Shown here in pieces: positions 98 to 15,473 of a stretch of DNA of 15,643 nt. The stretch's first letter is position 1. Each line of letters starts with the position of its first letter. The DNA comes from Candidatus Fermentibacterota bacterium. Lineage in GTDB: Bacteria > JAFGKV01. The stretch lies in assembly GCA_030620115.1 (NCBI GenBank), contig JAUXFG010000090.1:1-15643 (forward strand), given 5' to 3'. The notes under the pieces were generated by a model, which was given only the letters and a program-made list of their open reading frames with translations, did not search any database and had not been told where the DNA came from. A program made the position numbers and the translations under genes.

Positions 98-3000
98 TCA
101 TCGCGAACCTCCTTGTGGCCAGTAGGACCAGATGGTGGTGTAGATGGCTACAAGCTCGGCTAGGGGCTCCTGGATTTCGGGGCCGGATCGTTCTCGTTCG
201 AGACGCAAGGAGAGGTCGCTCAGCTTCGCTATTGCTTGGCCAAGCTGCTTGCGGTTCAGGAGCTGCCGGCTCGCCACCTGTTCGAGCGTTGCCATGCATT
301 CAGCGGCTATCTCAGGCTTGAGTTCTGTGTTCGCGGCTACAATTCGTTGCAGCTCGCGTAATGCTTCTCTTGATTCGATCTCCACTGTAGCCTCCGCGGA
401 CTTCCAGCCTTCTCTACGGTATACTCCGCCTCGGAGCGGGCGCACCTCCGTCTCTACTCTGTACCTGCCACGGATATCGGGCAGAACGCCGGAGTAACCT
501 AATTCCTTACCACTCTTGTCTAGTTCAATGTACCAGCTCAAGGTGGGACCGGATATATCGCCACTGCCATGGTCCACCAGCTTGATGCCGTCAGACAGTT
601 TCTCGCGTACCTGGCCTCTGCCTTCGCCGTTTACTCGGATCTTTATGTTCACCACTCTGGCGCCGCCGGTACGCGGTGAGGTTCTCCCCTCACCCTGACC
701 CTCTCCCCGGGGAGAGGGGATAAGACTGGTGCAGAGAGCGTTGGCCAATGCGGCATCAATTGTTTCGGCTGAGATTCCAGCATAGATGGCATGGCCATAA
801 CCAAGCTCTCTCACTGTAACGACCGGCAGATCGCCACTCGAAGCAACCACAACGGCTTCTTCGACCTTCACCAGAGGAGCCTCAGATCCAATCTCCCATG
901 TTCCGGCAGCAATCAGCTCGTCTCCGGCTGTGGAGATCTCATCCACATACTGGGTTCCACCGGTCACCTTGATGCCAAGGATGAGCTCGAGCTGCTTTGC
1001 GAGGCCTCCCTCTCCGTCGAATACCACCAGCCTATTGCCTCGACGGACGAATAGGCCAAGCTCGCCTATCAATGAACTGTCGATGGGAACAGATTCACCG
1101 GTGATTGCAACGGTGCTGTGCAGACCGTTGCGGAGCTCGGGGATGAAGGCTTCTCTTGTCTGAACAGTGGTTATGGGGTTTCCCCTCACCCTAACCCTCT
1201 CCCCAAGGAGAGGGGATAGAGAGGACAGAGAAGAACTGGCACTCATGGGGGAGAAGGGGTCGGAGGAGGACGGATCGGTCATCTCCCAGATCAGGAGGCC
1301 GTCGGGATGTTCGATGCACTTGTCAACGGTCCATTTGGTGAGCTCTAGCTCTTCTTCCGTTTGCTCTACATGTATCACGATACGATGCTCGCCAGGAGAG
1401 AGGCTGACTCCTCCCGCACTGACAGGAACAGACTCGCCATTGATCTCGAATCGCACGCCATGGCCCGCAGGAACCTCGCTCGCGTTCCATGTCAGGATGC
1501 CGTCTTGATCCGAACTCGCGATTGCTTCCCATGTCCACGCATCGTCCGGTCCTCTCACATCAACCGCTAAGCGGCTGAATGCCCCGCTAGTCACCGGGAA
1601 GTACAACTCTGCATCCCCCGCGCGAAGCGCTGCGGGCACCGGCCGATCCAAACGCCTATCAATGCCTGAGCTTGCACGCCTTGCCACACCGCATGCTGCT
1701 CGGGCAGTTCCTTGTCCATTGGCCAGAGCGAGCCGCACCAACCAGTCAGGCCGCTCTTCCTTGACTCCAAGGGCCAGAACCATGCCTCGTGCCTCTGTTC
1801 CCACCTTGAGCAACGCGTCTTCATAGGCCGCTACATAGTGACCACGTCGAGGCTGCAACGTATCGCTCCATACCCAGCCGCTATCGTAGTGCCAGCAGCC
1901 ACCACCTACCGCTCCTCCAGGCTCGGTCATTGGACTACTGAAGTCCTCTGGCCCAAATATCGACCCCACCAAATTCCAACCGGTTGCCACTTGGTAAGTG
2001 AATCCGCCAACCGGTTCACCTTTCCACCGCACCGTACTGTCTTCCGGAGCCAATACCCAGTAGCCTTCGCCCACCTTGATGGTGTCGGCCAGTACAAAGT
2101 CGGAACCTCCAGGCAGGAGTCTGTAAACGTACGAACCGGCGGGTATGCTGTCCATGATCTCACCAGCCATGGGCACCACAGGGAACGACACCAGCTTGCC
2201 GATCCCGCCGAAAGCAACCCTGATCTGGGGCGGTATGGTGATCACGAGGTCATGCGTGGTCTCCTCATTGCCTGCGCTGTCAACAGCGCCATAGGCCAAC
2301 GTATGATCATCTTCTCCACTCAGCCACAACGTATCCGTGTAGGTTTCCTGCGGCCCGCCGTCGATGCTCACCAGGATCTGCGCAACACCGCTCAACGTAT
2401 CGCCGGCTTGCAGCACATAGCCGCATTCCTCGTACGCATAGTACTGGTCGCCATCATCGTATAAGGTATCGGTCACCGTGAGCTCGGTTTCGGGGGCCAC
2501 ATTGTCCACTATGAATGGAATCGATAGGGTATCCCCCAGCTGATTCCATGCACTATCTATTGCGGTCATTTCCATAACCCGGCGCCCATCGTCGCCTGAT
2601 GTCGTGTGCCACACCATCTCATACGCTCCATCCAACGCATCACCGCTTATCAGCGGCAGAGCTTCCCACGATGCACCATCCAAACGATAGCTCACTTCCG
2701 CCACGCCATCGTGATTGTCTGTGGCGCGGACATGGATACTCACATCCCCTCGCTGGAAACTCCCGCTGTCCGGGGTCACCTCAGAGAGCACAGGACAAGT
2801 CAAATCCGTCACCATCAGGGCGCCTGATGCCACTGACACCGTGTCCCCATTCACTACAGCTCCCAGCCACAGCATATACGGCTTCCAATCAAGACCGCTG
2901 CCACCTGTTTCCACACTATCAACCACGCTGGCGCCAATCCCCAGGCTCGCACTCCTGGACCAGTCCTTGGCCAGACTGCTCGCCTGAACATCCACAATTC

Positions 3001-6000
3001 CTATCACTACATCCAGATTAGCCACTGACTGATTGCCCAGATTCTCCAGTTCGTAATGAATCGTGGTGCTGTCGTCAGGCTCTACCTTGTTGGGCAATGC
3101 CCGGATCCACCCTGTCAATTGATAGGTCGAGTCTTCTGATGAAGCTTGGATCGAGAAGCTCGTGGTAGAGCTCGCCAGCAGATCCCCTTCCTTGCTCAGC
3201 ACCAGGAAGCCCGCGGAAAAGCTCCCAGGAGACTCTGTTCCGGTCTCCCACATCTGTTCTGTTTCATGGATTCCTTCAGGTTCCACCTGCGCGACCTCCC
3301 ACAAATAGGTCGCTAGCGTATCTGAACCTGCTCGAACCACATACAGCCGCGCATCCAATGAGTCTACCGCCTGGTTGCCAGAAAGGTTCTTGATCCCACA
3401 TGCAAAACGCACAGTCTCGTTGGCCAGATAGCTCATGGCATCACTGTTCACCCACGTTTCCATGCCTGTGTTGGCGCGAATCGTGAATGTGACCTCATCC
3501 TCGTCCAAAACCTCCCACGATGACATCACACGCGTTCTCATCACATACGTTCCAGGAACCGTACTCCCCGTATTCCATCGAGTAAGAACCCGCTCCGTCT
3601 CGCCTGGTACGAGCTCGCCTATCTCTTCCTCATCGAGCTCCGCCAGAATCGTCCCATCAACGGTCTCTATGCGACACCGCACGCTCACCGTGTCTGGAGT
3701 CCCTCCAGTGTTCTCCACATCGGCAGTCAACACCACATCCTGGTTCGCCCAGTATGATGCCGCATCGGTCCACGTCTGCAGAACCACGAGGCTGCTCAGG
3801 ACCTCGATTGCTTTGTGCCCTGTGTTGTTGTTCTCATCGATCTCAGCAACTCTGCCCGCCGCATCGGCGATGGCCACGATGTGGCGAGGTCCCGGCTGGT
3901 AGCCGACGAACCAGTCCGTCCCGAATCGAACGCTGTCACCAACCGCCAGCTCAGGAATGAGGTCTCCTCGCAGCAGAGTCTCGACGCTATCGTCGTCATA
4001 TGCCAGGATAGTAAGACCGGCCGTAGGGCTCGGACCGGTACCGACATTGTGAATCGTCACAACGACCCGCGCCTGCTCACCTGGGAGTAGTTCTTCGGGG
4101 TACACGGAGATATCGTTGTCCGATATCAAAAGGTCGACACCCCATGGCATGGCCGGCACTGCCCCGGATAACGAGCTCTCTGACCCGCTCCAGTCCACTG
4201 CACTCACTTGGAATGAATAGCTCGTCCCTGCATCCAGACCTATATCAACGTAGGAGAGCGCCCGAATCGAATCCGCCGTGACTCTCCCGCCGTCTCGATA
4301 CACGTGATAGCCCGCAATGTCGGGCTCGGTATTGGCTTGCCACGTCAGCACTACACTGAGGTTGCCTTCCTCTGCCGCAAGCCCTGCCGGCGCCACGGGA
4401 GGGCCGCTGTCAAAGGTCATGGCCGAGTCGCTTTCAGAGAACGCACTCTCGTTCCCCGCCTCATCCACCGCAGTGACCGCATAGTAGTATACGACTCCAC
4501 TCTCAAGGTGCATTGACCCATAAGTGTACCAGGTGGATGTCGACTCAAACACGAATTGCTCATCGAACCCATCAGCCCGATAGATCCTATAGAAATCCAG
4601 ATCCGGCTCCGTATTGGCATCCCAGGCCAGATCGATCCGATGCTCACCTTGACCTGTGGCCACAAACCCTGTGGGAGCCGCTGGTGGGGAATCATCGATG
4701 GAGCACCAGACGGTGTCACCACCTGTCTGCCCCACGAGGTCAACAGCATCCAAACGAAAACTCCACACGCCGGTAAGGGCCTCCGTGTCCCACAACGCCA
4801 CCATAAGGGTGTCATAGCGCCCATACTCGTCTTCCCAGCTCACGGCGGAACCAAAGGCCAACTGATCCCAGCTCGTTGGCGAAATCCCTTGGCCCGCCCA
4901 AAGCGACCAGCGATCCATATGGTCCTCGATGATGAGAGCCCGAATGCGCCATTCTCCCCCCACGGCTTGAGCAGACTCAGGTGAGACGATCTCTATGGAT
5001 GGGGGAGTGATATCAACCAGCACTTCCTCGACTGTTGCGGCGCCACTCTCGTTGCTCGCCGTGTCCACCGCAGTGACTGCATAGTCATAGAAGTCTTCAT
5101 CGAGGCCGCCGTCTACATACTCGCTTGATCCCAGCAGGGAACCAGTAATGAGAGTGCTGTCACGATACACATAGTAGCCCGAGAGATCATCCTCTGTATT
5201 GCTGTTCCATTGCAGGTAGACCGTGTCCTGTGACACCGTTGCCGCCAGCCCGGTCGGTACGGCCGGAGGATCGGCATCATCAACCACGAACACCATGATA
5301 CTGTCCGGGGCACCATCCGTATTGGCAGACGAATCCGTAGCCACCGCACGGAGCGCGTATGTGCCCACGGAAAGCGAGCCGGTCTCCCAGTCAGCTTGGT
5401 AGGGGGCCATGGAATCCACGCCGATGGTGGCCCAACCGCCGCCACCCTCCTCTACATACTGTAGGGTGACGTGGGCGATATCCTGCGCGTCGCTTGCCGC
5501 TTTGACCAAAACCGTGCCTGCGACTCTGGCGGACTCAGCCGGAAAGGCGACCCATGCAACCGGAGCTCCGGTTTCGATTGCTGCCACAGCGGAATCCGAT
5601 GGCTGGCTGATGTTGCCCACGCTGTCTGCCGCACAGACTCGGTACTCATATGTACCGTCTCCACGCGAGGAATCGGTCACGCTGGTACCGGATATCAGGT
5701 AGTCCATAGGATCGGTGTAGTTCTCCGGCGCACCAAGCAGGAATCCATCACGATATGCCAAATAGCCTTCCACCACGTCAGCGTTCGCGTCCCATAGGAG
5801 ATCCACGTCATCGCCACTCGGCGTGGCTGTCAGCCCTGTGGGAACAGCAGGCGGCGTGTTATCTACCACCACCATCACGGAACAGCTCGCACTGCCGCCT
5901 CCGGCATCTTCCGCGGACAATCGGAGCGTGCATACCGTGTCAATCCATGATGTTTCCCAGATACCGAGCTCGCCAAGGCTCACGGACGCTGTTCCATACA

Positions 6001-9000
6001 CAATCCCCACGAACTCATCCTCGCTGGGGGTCATGCCCGGCGCGTACTCCAACGTGTACCATGAGAGATCAGCTGAAGCCGCCGTGCCCAAGACGTGCAC
6101 CGCCCCACGGATGCCTTGGCCGGAATCGGGGTAGGTAATACGAACGATGGGGATACTCGCCTCAGCCTCCACCACGCGTTCCGGCGAATGCGGACTCTCC
6201 CATCCAACGGTATCCACGGCAGTGATGGTATACTCGTACTCTCCTGGCCCTGCCACGGTATCACTCCATGCTGTTGTCTCCACAGGGCTTGCTGTCTGTG
6301 ATGCACCGTCTCGGTATACCTTGTAGCCAGCCATATCTCCCTCAGCATTCGCCTGCCACCACAACGAGACCACAAGACCATCAACAGACGCATCCGGGCG
6401 CGAAGGCGCAGCCGGCGGCCACGCATTGGTGGCCAGCGTACGCAGATCGGATGCTTCGTTGCCTGGGGAATCGACTACCATCAGCTTCAGAGTCTGTACG
6501 CCATCCGGCGGGAGCGGCCACCATGTGCCAAGGGGGCCATTGGTGACGGAGCTGGTCCCCTGGCACACCGTAGACCAGTAATCAGGCTCAGAGCCTGGAC
6601 CTACAAAGATCGTATGACGGGACAGATGAGCATCCGAGGCAGTGCCATGGATGATGGTCGAGGAGGTAAGAAGCGTATCAGCAGGAGGGAATGTAATGGT
6701 GGCAAGCGGATCCGTTCCATCCACCACCACGAATACCGAATCAACACCAGCAACGGATTCTTCATCCGTGGCAGTGAGCCGGATGGTGTATTGCCCATCT
6801 GCCAGCGATGTCACGTCCCAGGTTCCAAGAACTCCATGTTGTATGGAGACCGAATCCGTCGCAATAGATGTCCATGAGCCAGGGCTCGAACCAGCACCGT
6901 ATTCCAGCACATACTGGTCCAGAACAGGGGAGTAGGCGGCGCCAATCACATCCACTTGGCCTGCAACATGCGTTCCAGCCAACGGTTCCATGATGACCGC
7001 CAGCGGGCGGACTGTGTCGTTGTCCAATGTGACAAGGACACAGTCAGTTGCCGTCCGTCCGCCTTTATCAGTGACTTCCAGTCGTATGGTATAGTCACTG
7101 CCAGGAAAGGCCTCGGCGTGCCATGTACCCAACGGGCCGCTTTCGATAGCATCCACCGAAGATTCGACCCGAGCCCAACTGGAAGGAGAGTTTCCAGCTC
7201 CAACCTCCAGCATATAGTTGGAGAAATGATCATCCTGTGCAGTTCCTGTGATCTCCAGTGGTTCACCTGTCAAAGGTGTTCCGCTCGACGGAGAGCTTAT
7301 GATTGCCGTGGGATCAGTGTGGTCTACATAGCAATTCACCACTGGAGAGTATCCAAAACGATCGTAGTTATCCTCTCCTCTGGCCGCGAGCCTGAGAATC
7401 CCCTCTGGTTTGACGCTCGCATCCCACATCAGCACATATGGCGCCCCTGCATCCTCACCCAGAGTTTCCCACACACCAATAGAGTCACGCGCCCCGAAGA
7501 CCACACGAACGATCTCAGAGCTATCTCCTCCACATTCCTCTGTCACAAAGGCTGTTGCTTCAAGTCGAATCCTGTCATCCATCACCTGGCCCGTCTGCGG
7601 GCTGACAAGCAACACATACGGCGGGCAGTTGCTGATCCTCACTTGGATGGCATTGTTGAGCCAGATCCCTGAGATTGTCGTGCCGCTGACCGACAGCTCG
7701 CGCATTCCATCGGGGATAGTACGTGTGTCCCACATGACAGTGAAAGGGGCCTCTCCTGATGCGTCTCCTATGGGTTCCCACTGTAGGTTATCACCAGAAG
7801 GATCCCTGTGTTGGAGCGTCGCGTAATTGAGCTCCTCCGCTCCCCCGAGATAGTAGACAGTGATGCGAACGTCGCCCGAGACAGGGCAATTGGGCGTCGG
7901 AAACCCGATGAAGAGACCAACTTGGACCCCAACAGTGATGATATCCGAGCACAGAACTGCTTCATATTGATCCAGCGCCTCAGCCCGCATGTCGTAATGC
8001 CCGGGACTCGTGTTGGACAGGTCCCATAGGGTCTCAGCCTGTCCATACATGATGGGCTCCGTGCCTATGACGCCCCAGGATGAGCTATCATTCTCCTTCA
8101 CAGAGAACCGTGTGGTCACCGCCTGTGCCTGCCCGACATTCGCTTTGATCCAGTGGTTCTCAGCAAGGAGCACCTCATTGGCATTGGGATCCACGATCTT
8201 GATGCATGTAGAATCACTCTCATTCTCGTCGTACTCAAACATGACAGTCGCAATGGCTGTGTCCTGATTCGCTGCACAATCAAGCCCGATGAGACGGAAA
8301 TCATGCTCCCCTATGACAAGCCCTGTGGTAGTGAGCGTGAACATCTGATTCTCCAGCTCTCGCCTTCCGTTTTCCAGAGGAAACCACAGGGAAAAGGCCT
8401 CCACATACCAGTCCAGTCTCCATTCGCATAGATGCTCATCCAGGACCGTAGCTATCACACTCGCACCCTCACCCGGATCCAGCTCAACAATGGGGGGTGT
8501 AGTGTCCACATCAAGCGGGAGCCTGATATCATCAATAGCAAGCCTGTACTGGCCATCCGGAACCGTATCACCCAGGGCGCTTGTGCCTGTCCACAAGAAA
8601 GAGGAGTCCGCCGGCTCGGAGTGCGTATGACTCGTGGACCATACCGGAGTGCCTCCTTGATCCACGATCTCGAAATCAAAGACACCGGCCTCCAGAGCCG
8701 TGTAAGTGATATTGCAGGTGTCAACAGCTCCATCCGCATTGGGGGAGAAAGGGTTCGGCACGGCATGACAACCCGCAAGGCGTTGGTCTTCGATCCACTG
8801 CACGATCATATAGTCGCTGGCAGTATTGCCCGCTTTGTCCCATACGTCCAGCCGTAGCGTATACGTCCCCACTCCAGGCGGCACCCAGACGCCAAGATCA
8901 TTTTCCCGGACTTCCGCTGACTGTTCAGGCCCTGCAGGATGGAAGGCGAGAGGATCCTCCCCTTGGCCATAGAAAAGCTGGTACTTCTCGAAATTCGCGT

Positions 9001-11746
9001 CGCTGGCAGTTCCCCGTATGGTCAAGGCGCCAGGGTTCTCGGCCGTGCGGGAGACCTGGTCGATATGGGCCACAAGGTTCCGCAGTGACACCACAGCATA
9101 TATATGCCCGGAGGGAGACCATTCTGGCGCAGTGAAAAGCAGCTTCGATCCATCGGGAGAGAAATCACCGAGAGCACGGATCTCCTCCCCGACCTGTATC
9201 TGGACCATTTCCTCAGTCTTCAGATTCTTGGCCCATACAGCGCCTCCAAAAGGAGAATCCCACTCAGCCCTGGAGAAAACGAGCCAGTCACCTGTTCCTG
9301 GGTATGTCGCGGCTGCTCCGTCATCGATGATGAGCTGGACCCCCGTTCCGTCGAGAGCCATCCGTCTTATACCCCTTGTCCAGATGTGTATGCCAGGGCC
9401 CCCTGCCATCTGGATTCTTGTGGAATAGAAGCTGTCTGTCCCAGGCATCCAGCAGATCTGAGGGGGATTCCACACAGCCCCCCTCAGCTCGGCTCCTGCT
9501 TCACAGAGGAAGCGCTGACCGTTGCCGTTTCGCTCTGCTACCCAGAGTTGAAAACTGCTGGGCCAGTACGTGAGACTATATGGGGAAAAGTCGTACCTTT
9601 CAATTCCCTTATAGAGTATGTGGTCGCTGCTGGGAGACCACTCAGGTTGATCGGCATCGTCAATGACTCTGATCGCGCCACTGCCGTCATGATTCATGGT
9701 CCATACACTGACATAACCGGAATCATCGAAGGCTTCAAAAGCGATGAGATCCCCGTCAGGTGACCATGCCGCGCTACGATGCCACTGGCCGCTGCCTGCG
9801 GAATCAGTGAGCCGCCACTGCGCGCCGGTAGAGGTATCGATCTTCCATAAGTCCACCTCTGGGCGGGTGCCGGATGCCACAAGCAGGTACCGGCCGTCCG
9901 GGCTCCACGCGCACTCAAAACGACCGAAGTTCGAGTACCATGGCAACGTGGAGACTTGCTCCTCGCCTGTTCCGTCAGCATCCATGACCCATACATGGGA
10001 GCCTTGCCCATAGGCTATTCGGTCACCGCTCGGTGACCATCGTGGGCCATTGCACAATCCGGTTTCCGTGTATTGGAGGACCACGTAGTCGCCGGAGATC
10101 ATGTCTTGGATGAGCGGGCTACGGTTGGTGTCAACCACGATGCCAAGCGATGCAACATTGCTCGCTCCGCCGGAGCCATAAGTTCTCAATTCAAATCTGT
10201 ACTGCCCATCAGGCACGACTTCGCCATTCTCACTTCGTCCGTCCCATGTGTACGAATGAAGCCCGGAACCAAGCGCCACTTCCGAAGCCAGGGTTCTCAC
10301 CTCTGTGTCTTCACCCTCGAGGATTCTCACCGAAACCGTCCCATAGTCGGCCAGGTCAAAATAAAGGCGCGTCTCGTCCTTGATGCCATCGCCATTCGGA
10401 GAGAAGTATTCGGCGCTGACGTAGACAGAGTCTGCCCCAGGCGGCGTGAGGTCTATGACGAATACCTGTTTGAGAGCGTCGTTATTGCTCTCATTCAGCT
10501 CGCGAATGACATCGGACGAATCGATCCACGCGTGTAGATCAACATAGCCATTGATATCTCCCGTTCCCCAGATGAAGGCCGTTGAATCGATACCACCCGC
10601 GGGGATGCTCGTGATTGTCTGTACCGTTCCAACCTTGGCAGCATCAGCGTACAAGACAACAGGCACGTTCTGTGCGGATTCATCTCCGGTGTTCCGAACA
10701 TGTACTGTGACCGTGACATCATCCCCTTCATAGATGGTCACAGGATTCGTGATGACATCGCTCTCTGTGATCTCGAGATCCGGCAGCACTGCCTGGGATA
10801 AAGCCTTCACGGCCATGGCAGTGAGGTAAGAATCATGGCCCCACGAGCCATCAGATTCCTGAGCTCCCTCCAAATGGGCTCGCGCGGCGATTCTCGCCGA
10901 GGTGCCGGTCTGCTCGGCCAGCAGCAACAGAGAAGTAAGCGCGGTCTCGTACACAGTACTCCCCTCGCTGCCAAAACCCCCATCAGGATTTTGGTTGTTG
11001 AGGAGCCAGACCAGCCCCACTGACAACGCACCTTGGGAGTTATCATCCCCCCGCAGGGCATCAAGGCATAGCACGGTGAGATACACACTGGGATCACCAT
11101 TGTCCCATGGCCAATAGCCTGCGGGATCTTGCGCGAAACGGATGTAGGAGAGCCCGGAAACGAATGCAGTGGCTGTGGTCACCCCCCAGTCACGAAGCGC
11201 CTGGACCACCAAGGAGCTGGTGAGCAGATCGCGGTAGTGGTTCCCATCAAATCCCCAGCCGCCTTCGGCCGTGGCGTGATCGAGCAGAATAGCGCCCAGT
11301 CCGCCTGAGGATTGGCCTGTCAGCATGTTCGTGTAGAGTTTCCTTGCCGCATAGTCGTCATTGAGAACCACGGCGTCGTCGAGCCACGCGAGCCCCTGGA
11401 CAAAGGCGGCGCCAGTGGCATCAGCAGAATACAATGCCTCAATGGCCCGACAGGTGGTCCGAAGCCGTTCTTGCCCGCTGCCCCAGGAGCCATCGGTGTT
11501 CTGGTTGGATTCGAGCCAAGTGACGCCGTCGGAGACTGGATCTTGGGCATGGAGCGGTGCGGTGAGAAGGATCTGAACCGCAAGGACGAGAAGAGCGCAA
11601 AGCAGAAAGGGCGTATGGCGAGAAGACCGTAGGCAGGGGTTGCCCCTCACCCTAACCCTCTCCCCAAGGAGAGGGTAAAAGAGAGATGACAGGGCGTGGG
11701 AATACGCCGAAAGGGGCCGTGAGGGGTATTTCGGGGATGTCATCAT
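98..11746 (-). CDS. Giant exported multidomain surface protein (about 3,882 aa)
   Basis: Function unknown; probably a surface or secreted adhesion/scaffold protein. Domains seen, with residues counted from the chosen start: signal peptide 1-68 (cleavage near LHA|Q); prenyltransferase-like alpha/alpha repeats 73-319; CARDB 321-431; FlgD-like 435-544 ('FSPNGDG'); six-motif PD40 propeller 545-896; Ig-like module 891-989; second FlgD-like 991-1084 ('FSPNADG'); diverged beta region to 1478; Ig modules 1479-1776; Fn3 and Ig modules alternating 1778-2536; CARDB-like repeats 2537-2981; Ig-like to 3173; 'GWNLVG' block 3173-3316; amidotransferase-like fold about 3483-3674; helical tail 3789-3877. The start at 11746 is chosen because AAGGAG lies 5 nt upstream and the codon begins a tandem ATG ATG. 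The longer ATG at 11836 sits inside a 20-bp intergenic palindrome and is unlikely. A GTG at 11650 is a serious alternative. No enzyme active site is evident. Three palindromic DNA repeats are translated within it. Confidence 0.9.
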   Translation of the reverse strand: MMTSPKYPSRPLSAYSHALSSLFYPLLGERVRVRGNPCLRSSRHTPFLLCALLVLAVQILLTAPLHAQDPVSDGVTWLESNQNTDGSWGSGQERLRTTCRAIEALYSADATGAAFVQGLAWLDDAVVLNDDYAARKLYTNMLTGQSSGGLGAILLDHATAEGGWGFDGNHYRDLLTSSLVVQALRDWGVTTATAFVSGLSYIRFAQDPAGYWPWDNGDPSVYLTVLCLDALRGDDNSQGALSVGLVWLLNNQNPDGGFGSEGSTVYETALTSLLLLAEQTGTSARIAARAHLEGAQESDGSWGHDSYLTAMAVKALSQAVLPDLEITESDVITNPVTIYEGDDVTVTVHVRNTGDESAQNVPVVLYADAAKVGTVQTITSIPAGGIDSTAFIWGTGDINGYVDLHAWIDSSDVIRELNESNNDALKQVFVIDLTPPGADSVYVSAEYFSPNGDGIKDETRLYFDLADYGTVSVRILEGEDTEVRTLASEVALGSGLHSYTWDGRSENGEVVPDGQYRFELRTYGSGGASNVASLGIVVDTNRSPLIQDMISGDYVVLQYTETGLCNGPRWSPSGDRIAYGQGSHVWVMDADGTGEEQVSTLPWYSNFGRFECAWSPDGRYLLVASGTRPEVDLWKIDTSTGAQWRLTDSAGSGQWHRSAAWSPDGDLIAFEAFDDSGYVSVWTMNHDGSGAIRVIDDADQPEWSPSSDHILYKGIERYDFSPYSLTYWPSSFQLWVAERNGNGQRFLCEAGAELRGAVWNPPQICWMPGTDSFYSTRIQMAGGPGIHIWTRGIRRMALDGTGVQLIIDDGAAATYPGTGDWLVFSRAEWDSPFGGAVWAKNLKTEEMVQIQVGEEIRALGDFSPDGSKLLFTAPEWSPSGHIYAVVSLRNLVAHIDQVSRTAENPGALTIRGTASDANFEKYQLFYGQGEDPLAFHPAGPEQSAEVRENDLGVWVPPGVGTYTLRLDVWDKAGNTASDYMIVQWIEDQRLAGCHAVPNPFSPNADGAVDTCNITYTALEAGVFDFEIVDQGGTPVWSTSHTHSEPADSSFLWTGTSALGDTVPDGQYRLAIDDIRLPLDVDTTPPIVELDPGEGASVIATVLDEHLCEWRLDWYVEAFSLWFPLENGRRELENQMFTLTTTGLVIGEHDFRLIGLDCAANQDTAIATVMFEYDENESDSTCIKIVDPNANEVLLAENHWIKANVGQAQAVTTRFSVKENDSSSWGVIGTEPIMYGQAETLWDLSNTSPGHYDMRAEALDQYEAVLCSDIITVGVQVGLFIGFPTPNCPVSGDVRITVYYLGGAEELNYATLQHRDPSGDNLQWEPIGDASGEAPFTVMWDTRTIPDGMRELSVSGTTISGIWLNNAIQVRISNCPPYVLLVSPQTGQVMDDRIRLEATAFVTEECGGDSSEIVRVVFGARDSIGVWETLGEDAGAPYVLMWDASVKPEGILRLAARGEDNYDRFGYSPVVNCYVDHTDPTAIISSPSSGTPLTGEPLEITGTAQDDHFSNYMLEVGAGNSPSSWARVESSVDAIESGPLGTWHAEAFPGSDYTIRLEVTDKGGRTATDCVLVTLDNDTVRPLAVIMEPLAGTHVAGQVDVIGAAYSPVLDQYVLEYGAGSSPGSWTSIATDSVSIQHGVLGTWDVTSLADGQYTIRLTATDEESVAGVDSVFVVVDGTDPLATITFPPADTLLTSSTIIHGTASDAHLSRHTIFVGPGSEPDYWSTVCQGTSSVTNGPLGTWWPLPPDGVQTLKLMVVDSPGNEASDLRTLATNAWPPAAPSRPDASVDGLVVSLWWQANAEGDMAGYKVYRDGASQTASPVETTAWSDTVAGPGEYEYTITAVDTVGWESPHSPERVVEAEASIPIVRITYPDSGQGIRGAVHVLGTAASADLSWYTLEYAPGMTPSEDEFVGIVYGTASVSLGELGIWETSWIDTVCTLRLSAEDAGGGSASCSVMVVVDNTPPAVPTGLTATPSGDDVDLLWDANADVVEGYLAYRDGFLLGAPENYTDPMDYLISGTSVTDSSRGDGTYEYRVCAADSVGNISQPSDSAVAAIETGAPVAWVAFPAESARVAGTVLVKAASDAQDIAHVTLQYVEEGGGGWATIGVDSMAPYQADWETGSLSVGTYALRAVATDSSANTDGAPDSIMVFVVDDADPPAVPTGLAATVSQDTVYLQWNSNTEDDLSGYYVYRDSTLITGSLLGSSEYVDGGLDEDFYDYAVTAVDTASNESGAATVEEVLVDITPPSIEIVSPESAQAVGGEWRIRALIIEDHMDRWSLWAGQGISPTSWDQLAFGSAVSWEDEYGRYDTLMVALWDTEALTGVWSFRLDAVDLVGQTGGDTVWCSIDDSPPAAPTGFVATGQGEHRIDLAWDANTEPDLDFYRIYRADGFDEQFVFESTSTWYTYGSMHLESGVVYYYAVTAVDEAGNESAFSESDSAMTFDSGPPVAPAGLAAEEGNLSVVLTWQANTEPDIAGYHVYRDGGRVTADSIRALSYVDIGLDAGTSYSFQVSAVDWSGSESSLSGAVPAMPWGVDLLISDNDISVYPEELLPGEQARVVVTIHNVGTGPSPTAGLTILAYDDDSVETLLRGDLIPELAVGDSVRFGTDWFVGYQPGPRHIVAIADAAGRVAEIDENNNTGHKAIEVLSSLVVLQTWTDAASYWANQDVVLTADVENTGGTPDTVSVRCRIETVDGTILAELDEEEIGELVPGETERVLTRWNTGSTVPGTYVMRTRVMSSWEVLDEDEVTFTIRANTGMETWVNSDAMSYLANETVRFACGIKNLSGNQAVDSLDARLYVVRAGSDTLATYLWEVAQVEPEGIHETEQMWETGTESPGSFSAGFLVLSKEGDLLASSTTSFSIQASSEDSTYQLTGWIRALPNKVEPDDSTTIHYELENLGNQSVANLDVVIGIVDVQASSLAKDWSRSASLGIGASVVDSVETGGSGLDWKPYMLWLGAVVNGDTVSVASGALMVTDLTCPVLSEVTPDSGSFQRGDVSIHVRATDNHDGVAEVSYRLDGASWEALPLISGDALDGAYEMVWHTTSGDDGRRVMEMTAIDSAWNQLGDTLSIPFIVDNVAPETELTVTDTLYDDGDQYYAYEECGYVLQAGDTLSGVAQILVSIDGGPQETYTDTLWLSGEDDHTLAYGAVDSAGNEETTHDLVITIPPQIRVAFGGIGKLVSFPVVPMAGEIMDSIPAGSYVYRLLPGGSDFVLADTIKVGEGYWVLAPEDSTVRWKGEPVGGFTYQVATGWNLVGSIFGPEDFSSPMTEPGGAVGGGCWHYDSGWVWSDTLQPRRGHYVAAYEDALLKVGTEARGMVLALGVKEERPDWLVRLALANGQGTARAACGVARRASSGIDRRLDRPVPAALRAGDAELYFPVTSGAFSRLAVDVRGPDDAWTWEAIASSDQDGILTWNASEVPAGHGVRFEINGESVPVSAGGVSLSPGEHRIVIHVEQTEEELELTKWTVDKCIEHPDGLLIWEMTDPSSSDPFSPMSASSSLSSLSPLLGERVRVRGNPITTVQTREAFIPELRNGLHSTVAITGESVPIDSSLIGELGLFVRRGNRLVVFDGEGGLAKQLELILGIKVTGGTQYVDEISTAGDELIAAGTWEIGSEAPLVKVEEAVVVASSGDLPVVTVRELGYGHAIYAGISAETIDAALANALCTSLIPSPRGEGQGEGRTSPRTGGARVVNIKIRVNGEGRGQVREKLSDGIKLVDHGSGDISGPTLSWYIELDKSGKELGYSGVLPDIRGRYRVETEVRPLRGGVYRREGWKSAEATVEIESREALRELQRIVAANTELKPEIAAECMATLEQVASRQLLNRKQLGQAIAKLSDLSLRLERERSGPEIQEPLAELVAIYTTIWSYWPQGGSR
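686..720. repeat. Palindromic GC-rich repeat, copy A, inside the giant gene
   Basis: The core begins CCCCTCACCCTGACC and contains a perfect 20-bp palindrome, CCCTCTCCCCGGGGAGAGGG (699-718). On the minus strand it is translated as 'IPSPRGEGQGEG', a different frame from copies B and C. It lies in the linker between the amidotransferase-like fold and the C-terminal domain. Confidence 0.9.
725..1300 (-). other. Degenerate class I glutamine-amidotransferase-like fold near the C-terminus
   Basis: Alternating strands and helices are visible: 'GLLIWEM' (strand 1), 'REAFIPELRNGLHSTVAITG', 'IGELGLFVRRGNRLVVFDG', 'LELILGIKVTGG' and 'GYGHAIYAGIS'. This resembles the GATase1-like domains found in large envelope proteins. 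No nucleophilic cysteine is present where one would be expected after 'TVAITG', so it should be non-catalytic. Repeat copy B falls where helix 1 would be. The assignment is by pattern only. Confidence 0.45.
1182..1216. repeat. Palindromic GC-rich repeat, copy B, inside the giant gene
   Basis: The core differs from copy C at only its last bases and from copy A at a few positions. Its stem is CCCTCTCC (1195-1202) and GGAGAGGG (1207-1214). It is translated on the minus strand as 'SPLLGERVRVRGNP'. Similarity with copy C extends further to a serine/leucine-rich 'SSLSSL'-type peptide encoded at about 1217-1245. Confidence 0.9.
2805..4138 (-). other. CARDB and CARDB-like beta-sandwich repeats
   Basis: The first unit (to about 3790) is a clear CARDB: 'DLLISDNDISVYPEELLPGEQARVVV' style entry, 'TIHNVGTGPSP' and the closing 'EIDENNN'. 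Three weaker units follow. They share a '.V.L...V.N.G..' strand and a 'G.Y....V' return, with entry strands such as 'YWANQDVVLTADVENTGG' and 'YLANETVRFACGIKNLSG'. They look like diverged tandem duplicates of one domain. Confidence 0.6.
4140..7312 (-). repeat. Array of about 100-residue Ig-like modules and five Fn3 domains in the giant protein
   Basis: Two module types alternate. The Ig-like module has the pattern I..P..G..V.G...I.GTA.D, then LEYG.G..P..W, then G.LG.W, then YT.RL...D. It occurs three times in tandem (about 6420-7312) and again near 5870-6152 and 4690-5010. A further outlying copy is at 8780-9075. The Fn3 type has W.AN.E.DL.GY.VYRDG followed by Y.Y.VTAVD..GNES, near 6160-6415, 5580-5860, 5010-5260, 4415-4690 and 4140-4410. 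Such arrays usually form rigid extracellular stalks. Copies are well diverged at the protein level. Confidence 0.8.
9060..10114 (-). other. PD40/TolB-like beta-propeller
   Basis: Six PD40-type blade motifs can be read in order: PRWSPSGDRIAY, CAWSPDGRYLLVA, AAWSPDGDLIAFEA, PEWSPSSDHILY, GDFSPDGSKLLFT and PEWSPSGHIYAVV. They are interleaved with 'VWVMDADGTG' and 'VWTMNHDGSG' strands, as in the TolB propeller. Six motifs fit a closed six-bladed propeller of about 350 residues. The likely role is protein or carbohydrate binding outside the cytoplasm. Confidence 0.85.
10115..10786 (-). other. CARDB domain followed by a FlgD-like Ig domain
   Basis: The first half begins 'LPDLEITESDV' and contains 'VTVHVRNTGDESAQNVPV' and 'ELNESNN', the usual signatures of a CARDB (cell-adhesion-related) beta-sandwich. 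The second half has 'EYFSPNGDGIKDE', 'TWDGRSENGEVVPDGQY' and 'FELRTYGSGG', typical of FlgD-like Ig folds in extracellular proteins. A second FlgD-like domain lies near 8495-8775 with 'PNPFSPNADG' and 'VPDGQYRLAI'. Confidence 0.75.
10790..11530 (-). other. Prenyltransferase / squalene-cyclase-like alpha/alpha repeat domain
   Basis: This N-terminal domain of the giant protein carries at least five QW-like motifs: QNTDGSWG, AEGGWGFDG, DPAGYWPWD, QNPDGGFG and QESDGSWG. They are separated by alanine/leucine-rich helices (for example 'TSSLVVQALRDWG'). This matches the alpha/alpha toroid fold of terpene cyclases and prenyltransferase beta subunits. The class II cyclase DxDD acid motif is not visible, so a binding or structural role is more likely than cyclase activity (inference). 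Confidence 0.8.
11643..11675. repeat. Palindromic GC-rich repeat, copy C, in the signal-peptide n-region
   Basis: This is nearly identical to copy B, with stem CCCTCTCC / GGAGAGGG at 11656-11663 and 11668-11675. It is translated as 'YPLLGERVRVRGNP' between the first start codon and the hydrophobic core of the signal peptide. It contains the alternative Shine-Dalgarno and GTG described separately. Confidence 0.9.
11648..11663 (-). promoter_or_regulatory. Alternative repeat-borne ribosome binding site and GTG start
   Basis: Inside repeat copy C the minus strand reads GGAGAGGG (11656-11663), then 5 nt, then an in-frame GTG (11648-11650). Starting here gives a signal peptide of about 35 residues with a short basic n-region, instead of 68 residues with a long n-region. 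The spacing and the resulting peptide are both normal. Which start is used cannot be settled from the sequence. Confidence 0.4.
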
Positions 11747-11751
11747 TGGGG

Positions 11752-11757
11752 CTCCTT
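11752..11757 (-). promoter_or_regulatory. Shine-Dalgarno of the giant gene (first candidate start)
   Basis: The minus strand reads AAGGAG, followed by 5 nt and then ATG ATG (11746 and 11743). This is the best ribosome binding site upstream of the hydrophobic signal segment, and it decides against the ATG at 11836. Confidence 0.6.
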
Positions 11758-11786
11758 GGTTTTGGAAGCCATCAGCTATCTGCGTT

Positions 11787-11807
11787 GGGCGAACACAAGG
11801 TTCGTCC
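11787..11807. repeat. Imperfect REP-like inverted repeat upstream of the giant gene
   Basis: GGGCGAAC and GTTCGTCC face each other across ACAAG, with one mismatch, and are followed by GTAGG. It resembles a degenerate copy of the short palindromic 'GTAGGGGC...GCCC' units that are widespread in bacterial intergenic DNA. Confidence 0.55.
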
Positions 11808-11825
11808 GTAGGGTCCGCCTCTGTT

Positions 11826-11845
11826 GGGCACGGCATGCCGTGCCC
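11826..11845. repeat. Perfect 20-bp palindrome (REP-like)
   Basis: GGGCACGGCATGCCGTGCCC is its own reverse complement and is followed by CTAC. It belongs to a type of short palindromic unit common in intergenic DNA of many bacteria. It contains an in-frame ATG (11834-11836) for the giant reading frame, which I consider accidental. A regulatory operator is the less likely alternative. Confidence 0.8.
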
Positions 11846-11933: not shown

Positions 11934-12063
11934 CTTCTCAATAAGTCCGTGCGAAATCGGAGAAATCCCCCTCACCGAGCCGTAGGCTCTACGAGCCGGA
12001 GGCCTTAATCCCCCTTTGCGAAAGGGGGAAAGGGGAGGTTGGATGGGCGGGCTTATTGAGAAG
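11934..12063. mobile_element. MITE-like element, copy 1 (130 bp)
   Basis: The terminal inverted repeats are CTTCTCAATAAGTCCG (11934-11949) and, inverted, CTTCTCAATAAGCCCG (12048-12063): one mismatch in 16. Inside are two hairpins, CGTAG-GCT-CTACG (11981-11993) and CCCCCTTT-GCG-AAAGGGGG (12010-12028). It encodes no transposase. It is highly similar to 15350-15473 in the same orientation. A target-site duplication is not obvious. It lies about 190 bp upstream of the giant gene's start. Confidence 0.85.
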
Positions 12064-12300
12064 TCACTGATTCTTTGCATGACTGGGTCCTTAGGATGGC
12101 GGGGGAGGGATTGGGGAAGCGAGCAGCGTTGAGCATGCAGCGGGCAGACGTCGGAAGGGATTGGGGAGGGAGGAGGAGGAGCAAGGAAATATCCAACATC
12201 GAACATTCAACATCGAAGTTGGGGAATTGGGGGAATCGACGAGGCTCCCGATGAAGCTCCCGGAGGATCGCAGGCAGGGGAAGATCGCAGGCAGGGACGC

Positions 12301-12365
12301 CTGCGCCACTGACCTGCGCCACTGACCTGCGCCACTGACCTGTGTCACTGACCTGCGCCACTGAC
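12301..12365. repeat. Tandem repeat, 13 bp x 5
   Basis: Five contiguous units of CTGCGCCACTGAC run from 12301. The fourth (12340-12352) reads CTGTGTCACTGAC and the other four are identical. It begins right after a CAGGCAGGGACGC word. It is a candidate variable-number tandem repeat. Confidence 0.95.
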
Positions 12366-12488
12366 TGGAGGGGAGAGGGATCTGGGGGATTCGACAAGGC
12401 TCCCGACGAAGCTCCCGATGAAGTTTTGGGAGGAGGAGGGGAAGTGAGGAGACATTCAACATCGAACGTCGAAGTTGGGATAGGAGGG

Positions 12489-12539
12489 AGTTCGAGACCC
12501 GCCTTCGTCGGATGACTTTGGCGTGGCAAGCGAAGTTTG
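12489..12539. repeat. Direct repeat, short copy, upstream of the giant gene
   Basis: This is the 51-bp partner of the repeat at 2-85 and lacks its central 33 bases. The outer arms are nearly identical and the orientation is the same. It lies just downstream of the Fn3 gene on the minus strand. Confidence 0.85.
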
Positions 12540-12576
12540 AGATGAAGTTTGGGACAAAGTTCATGGGGGGAAGAGG

Positions 12577-15349: not shown

Positions 15350-15473
15350 CTTCTCAATAAGTCCGTGCGAAATCGGAGAAATCCCCTCACCGAGCCATAG
15401 GCTCTATGAGCCGGTGGCCTTAATCCCCCTTTGCAAAGGGGGAGAGGGGTCGGATACTCGGACTATTGAGAAG
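15350..15473. mobile_element. MITE-like element, copy 2 (124 bp), in the secretin leader
   Basis: The termini CTTCTCAATAAGTCCG and, inverted, CTTCTCAATAGTCCG match those of copy 1. The hairpins are CATAG-GCT-CTATG (15396-15408) and the perfect palindrome CCCCCTTTGCAAAGGGGG (15425-15442). It sits between the predicted promoter and the secretin start codon, so it would be transcribed in the leader. No coding capacity and no clear target-site duplication. Confidence 0.85.

Follow-up and report, generated by a model that had tools for sequence, protein, structure and literature searches.

The closest described relatives of the repeats studied here are the boxC sequences of E. coli, also named PIT elements or TMECO (Hoyne et al. 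2000; Holder et al. 2015, PMC4666352), of which MG1655 carries 23 copies, every one of them intergenic and without any associated gene class or mobile element (PMC4666352). This ‘triplex motif’ (TM) is built from a hairpin with one pyrimidine and one purine arm, a 3-nt spacer and a third arm, also of purines, that is the mirror image of the purine arm in the stem. TMECO forms a triplex in vitro, and PIT elements showed neither promoter nor terminator activity (PMC4666352). Palindromic DNA lying in frame within protein genes, where it is apparently tolerated, has been described as the Rickettsia palindromic elements, which are 105–146 bp long, have terminal inverted repeats and are Rickettsia-specific (PMC2229807). 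Short in-frame palindromes within unrelated proteins, sometimes twice per gene, are also documented for the GTAG/CGTC REPs, with the GTAG REPs going with RAYTs (PMC3733652). Here we describe three repeats within one giant gene in a contig of 15 643 nt from a Candidatus Fermentibacterota bacterium (GCA_030620115.1, JAUXFG010000090.1), the whole of which is referred to as the window.

Three boxC/PIT/TM copies in one giant gene

A core of 32 bp, CCCTCACCCTAACCCTCTCCCCAAGGAGAGGG, was found exactly in copies B and C and with three mismatches in copy A, all in the same DNA orientation (Table 1), and 200 dinucleotide-preserving shuffles of the window gave no match to this core. A repeat finder grouped the three copies as one 40-nt family, in which identity to B is 98% for C and 85% for A. 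The original prediction, that three copies with the same orientation lie within one giant open frame, was thus borne out, as was the claim that two reading frames are used among them, since copies B and C are read as PLLGERVRVRGNP (GERVRVRG) and copy A as IPSPRGEGQGEG (GEGQGEG), which is another frame of the same repeat.

Table 1. Features of the window, with positions as read on the forward strand.
Feature	Position	Strand	Sequence or composition	Reading or remark
Giant ORF	98..11836	-		3912 aa as ORF; 3882 aa from likely start ATG at 11746
TM copy A	687..719	-	CCCCTCTCCCCGGGGAGAGGG, spacer TCA, third arm GGGTGAGGG; core at 687-718	Read as PSPRGEGQGEG; peptide at ORF codons 3706-3717
TM copy B	1183..1215	-	CCCTCTCC-TTGG-GGAGAGGG, spacer TTA, third arm GGGTGAGGG; core at 1183-1214	Read as PLLGERVRVRGNP; peptide at ORF codons 3542-3554
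TM copy C	11644..11676	-	Core as in B, at 11644-11675	Read as PLLGERVRVRGNP if the start is 11746 (signal-peptide n-region); peptide at ORF codons 55-67
Likely start	11741..11757	-	AAGGAG at 11757-11752, then ATGATG at 11746-11741, 5 nt on	Upstream of C; from sequence
Whalefall-1 matches	1182-1216, 11643-11677, 686-720		TM's hairpin and AGGGTGAGG arm	Rfam, sub-threshold
MITE-like element	11934..12063		Ends CTTCTCAATAAG / CTTATTGAGAAG	Outside the giant gene; roughly 125 bp
Weaker TM-like motif	12010-12040	+	CCCCCTTT-AAAGGGGG	Inside the MITE-like element 11934-12063
Second MITE-like copy	15350-15473		CTTCTCAATAAG / CTTATTGAGAAG
Tandem repeat	12300-12365		13-bp unit CCTGCGCCACTGA	Five copies head-to-tail, one diverged
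Repeat of ACATTCAACATCGAAC type	12196-12223, 12452-12479		ACATTCAACATCGAAC
Two-part direct repeat	2-88, 12489-12542		AGTTCGAGACCCGCCTTCGTCGGATG ... GGCGTGGCAAGCGAAGTTTG	Flanks the giant ORF on both sides

All three copies form a hairpin of pyrimidine and purine arms, having 8-nt arms with no mismatches, and in each the third arm GGGTGAGGG follows after a 3-nt spacer. The hairpin, the TTA spacer and the GGGTGAGGG arm match TMECO type A (Table 1 of PMC4666352). Judged on their sequence, the three repeats were shown to be boxC/PIT/TM copies and not a new repeat, with the same hairpin, spacer, mirror third arm and consensus as a motif found in many bacteria. The original prediction had read them as a palindrome inserted in the manner of the Rickettsia palindromic elements, and the notion of one DNA palindrome with several insertions in one open frame, comparable in kind to those elements, held up; what it had overlooked was that the repeat belongs to a described family present in many phyla (PMC4666352) and that in-frame palindromes are documented outside Rickettsia, for the GTAG/CGTC REPs (PMC3733652). 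The unit common to the window copies is 40 bp, and TM repeats, at about 33–40 bp and in many phyla, differ in both respects from the Rickettsia elements. They are also another repeat than the GTAG/CGTC REPs, and neither tetranucleotide was found in the sequence flanking the three cores. The MG1655 copies are all intergenic, whereas here three lie in one reading frame, with A and B inside coding sequence; an intergenic location is an observation made in MG1655 and stands outside the definition of the motif.

The use of two frames can be explained by the spacer. When the purine strand is read, a repeat with a TTA spacer has a single open minus-strand frame, giving GERVRVRG, and its GEGQGEG frame holds a TAG; the TCA spacer of copy A turns this TAG into CAG, thereby opening the GEGQGEG frame. 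The difference between A and B/C thus follows from the TTA and TCA spacer subtypes, with no need for any special shifting mechanism. We abandoned the idea that selection within the gene had produced the TCA of copy A by substitution, because TCA is a common spacer subtype in other genomes. The other in-frame copy read as GEGQGEG, at locus L118, likewise has TCA.

The hairpin is perfect on the coding strand and all three copies gave sub-threshold matches to the Rfam family whalefall-1, as could be expected if the repeats were retained as nucleic-acid elements in the gene, such as an mRNA hairpin, an attenuator or an sRNA-like element. The whalefall-1 scores were, however, 25.3, 24.2 and 21.8 bits versus a gathering cut-off of 37, which together with the lack of promoter or terminator activity of PIT elements (PMC4666352) makes such a role very improbable. 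Its model shares the hairpin and the AGGGTGAGG arm with TM, and whalefall-1 may thus be a DNA repeat of TM type itself.

The product of the giant ORF is a secreted multi-domain protein with cyclase-like repeats, CARDB, FlgD-Ig, propeller-like repeats, fn3 and Ig domains. Codon usage learned from the central part of the ORF scored the ORF frame above the other two on either side of copies A and B, including the stretch that separates them and the one past A. Copies A and B lie within what is well-supported coding sequence and look like linkers near the C-terminus. That separate genes were fused at the shared repeat during assembly could be imagined for a draft of 296 contigs having the motif at several places, but a single coding frame continues across A and B, codon usage is consistent on either side of them, the repeat is no longer than about 35–40 bp, and outside the window this hairpin variant was found as just one more single copy, all of which makes an artefact of that kind very unlikely. 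AlphaFold, run on the single sequence of the C-terminal 509 aa, gave a mean pLDDT of 39 and was not used, and a search for orthologues of these 509 residues in 145 genomes returned, apart from the protein itself, a single match that was weak and partial (E 8.8e-4).

Around copy C the codon-usage score was ambiguous, and it was poor before about codon 76. If the true start were downstream, copy C would be untranslated leader DNA, in keeping with these scores and with the often extragenic location of REPs at N-termini (PMC3733652). We find this rather doubtful, since there is no ATG, GTG or TTG between copy C and the signal peptide and a good ribosome-binding site with ATGATG lies upstream of C. 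For the same reasons copy C is probably located in the signal-peptide n-region, or may else be 5′ leader DNA.

Other repeats were also seen in the window (Table 1). The two MITE-like copies bracket genes upstream of the giant ORF, and a stretch similar to the ACATTCAACATCGAAC-type repeat is found on another contig of the genome (C18, locus L028).

Occurrence in other genomes and proteins

The exact 32-bp core was found in 51 stretches, the record titles of which cover at least eight phyla, and an exact 20-bp core in 22 of the 290 genomes sampled. A search of the source genome for the core, as the original prediction had proposed, gave with up to three mismatches copies on four contigs only: the three in this gene, one on C18, and others on C177 and C216. 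The copies on the latter two contigs are mostly alternating inverted, with a spacing that is in part periodic at close to 135 bp, and at these loci (L026 and L027) they were seen between FHA, kinase-like, phosphatase-like and other genes.

Over all genomes examined the repeat was read in four of the six frames. Several long ORFs across repeats at other loci were excluded as probably spurious, and some five of about 115 copies examined were in frame in recognisable proteins, namely a CHAT domain protein (L094), a UvrD/AddA-like protein (L095), a cytochrome cd1-type protein (L098), a class II aldolase (L100) and an Eco57I-type protein (L118). For two of these, the NirN-type cytochrome L098 and the aldolase L100, the repeat coincides with residues missing from the solved homologues 6rtd and 2fk5, respectively. 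In-frame boxC is rare but recurrent, and the window is unusual in having three copies in one gene. The L098 protein also has, at about residues 328–346, a second peptide, PPFIKGGTNGGF, at an 18-residue insertion relative to NirN; this peptide resembles what a motif of the CCCCCTTT/AAAGGGGG family would encode in frame.

Because this DNA is used in two frames in the window and in four of six over all genomes, and because the copies in L098 and L100 match extra residues relative to solved homologues, we regard the copies as inserted DNA. That the gene of one secreted protein contains boxC/PIT/TM copies at the DNA level, each of them free of stops in the frame used and kept in frame, is well supported by the sequences compared. 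Each insertion would have added about 11–13 arbitrary residues at a tolerant site, be it the n-region or leader or the linkers near the C-terminus.

Neighbourhood of DUF559 genes

The first lead to a gene associated with the repeat came from two Aquimarina loci, in which a DUF559 gene lies between TM copies. We analyzed DUF559 loci from a family search over 290 genomes, chosen by score alone, using the top 40 and then the next 40. Window-type sequence was found within 200 bp of DUF559 in 19 of the top 40 loci, and a family-independent motif finder gave a motif within 200 bp in 36 of them, on both sides in 25. Among the next 40 loci 25 had a motif within that distance, giving 61 of 80 for both sets together, with some near-duplicate loci from the same genomes retained in these counts. 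In the first set, motif density was 2.47/kb near the DUF559 gene versus 0.12/kb beyond 400 bp. The finder was written after the flanks of DUF559 loci had been seen, and therefore the controls, and not the absolute counts, carry the argument. None of 30 HU loci, taken from the genomes of the first DUF559 set, had a TM motif within 200 bp, nor had any of 30 top-scoring Y1_Tnp loci of other genomes, which are probably mostly IS200-like and under-sample true RAYTs.

The latter control bears on whether the repeats could be ordinary REPs mobilised by a RAYT (Y1 tyrosine) transposase. The genome of the window has four Y1_Tnp genes, and such REPs are known inside genes (PMC3733652). The TM motif was, however, absent around all four genes, as it was at the Y1_Tnp loci elsewhere with their probably few true RAYTs, and the repeat carries no GTAG or CGTC tag, so that we consider mobilisation by RAYT very unlikely.

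The motifs next to DUF559 genes have an inverted arrangement, with 59 of 70 in the first set having the purine strand upstream in the same or downstream in the opposite orientation, a rule that was weaker in the second set of 40 loci (32 of 50 motifs). The motif sequence varies between DUF559 loci while the plan is constant, and the two sides usually have the same sequence family. When hairpins were located blind to the third arm, the third arm was present in 48 of 68, versus at most 28 in 500 between-locus permutations; in these hairpins a G of the stem is opposite a G of the third arm 324 times, and an A of the stem is opposite an A 47 times and a T 56 times. From one motif family to another, hairpin and third arm change together. 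DUF559 was not found in phage records, and no link between DUF559 and repeats was apparent from the titles and abstract openings of open-access papers naming DUF559.

E. coli MG1655 has ycjD as its DUF559 gene, downstream of which TMECO 9 is located (TM at 1,351,205), and YcjD is a PD-(D/E)XK protein related to Vsr (PMC1189080). E. coli KE47 (L205) has a full TM directly at the 3′ end of ycjD, with the version in MG1655 being shortened. Where one genome has paralogous DUF559 units at separate sites, these have 573–664 bp in common, spanning the motifs, and differ in the DNA around them, which suggests that the unit moves. The similarity between dispersed units continues outside the motifs, and these are therefore not the exact ends of the unit. 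As candidates for a clean empty site in E. coli, adk-hemH and zntA-tusA were rejected, their alleles showing a replaced block or a larger rearrangement and no clean footprint.

It could be that the neighbourhood of TM and DUF559 is real without being causal, with the units inserting at, or settling near, TM repeats whose spread has another cause. This would agree with the unit similarity reaching beyond the motifs, with a GTAGTGTCAAAA-like sequence at both outer edges of one unit family (L158/L172), as if another enzyme had moved the unit, and with genomes that have TM copies and no DUF559 gene: no DUF559 match was found in the genome of the window (98% complete), nor in 7 of 21 other genomes having the exact 20-bp core. 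We nevertheless hold it to be somewhat unlikely, considering that the motifs lie on both sides of the gene, inverted and usually of the same sequence family, with that family differing between DUF559 loci. The unit with the gene between inverted motifs was not found in the genome of the window but was found in this genome's two family members (G001 and G002), which makes it necessary to assume that the unit was lost or that the copies came from elsewhere.

Proposed mode of spread and known counterparts

As a joint explanation, we think it probable that TM copies were inserted in tolerant places of the giant gene and that TM repeats are satellites of DUF559/YcjD that have spread occasionally in frame. 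TM repeats might thus be to DUF559/YcjD-type nucleases what REPs are to RAYT transposases, this being the less certain part. The DUF559 nuclease would recognise or cut the folded motif, and repair or copying would then spread copies one at a time, for the most part into intergenic DNA and sometimes into a gene in frame. Those in the genome of the window would be what is left of an element that the assembly lacks, or have been acquired from elsewhere. That DUF559 may spread TM repeats is, by association, the best lead. We tentatively propose, at somewhat short of even confidence, that boxC/PIT/TM repeats in general are dispersed satellites of a DUF559/YcjD system, in which a PD-(D/E)XK enzyme would recognise three-armed folded DNA, co-evolve with it and spread the motif across phyla, occasionally in frame.

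To our knowledge, neither an associated gene nor a mechanism of spread has been available for the boxC/PIT repeats, although they were known by the 1990s. The close, inverted and covarying association with DUF559, a family of small nucleases that has received little study, gives a concrete candidate for that spread, testable in E. coli K-12, where ycjD lies beside a boxC copy. boxC repeats can also add peptide segments to proteins, and repeat-bearing ORFs should neither be discarded nor over-interpreted.

In comparison with boxC/PIT/TMECO as described, for which no associated gene was reported, the present analysis adds the proposed link to DUF559. If true, DUF559/YcjD-TM would be a second and unrelated counterpart of RAYT-REP. 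The two are alike in that the gene of a DNA-cutting enzyme is bracketed by inverted repeat copies, with the repeat also being dispersed in genomes, and they differ in that DUF559/YcjD is a Vsr-related PD-(D/E)XK protein (PMC1189080) and not a Y1 transposase, and in that TM has a third arm.
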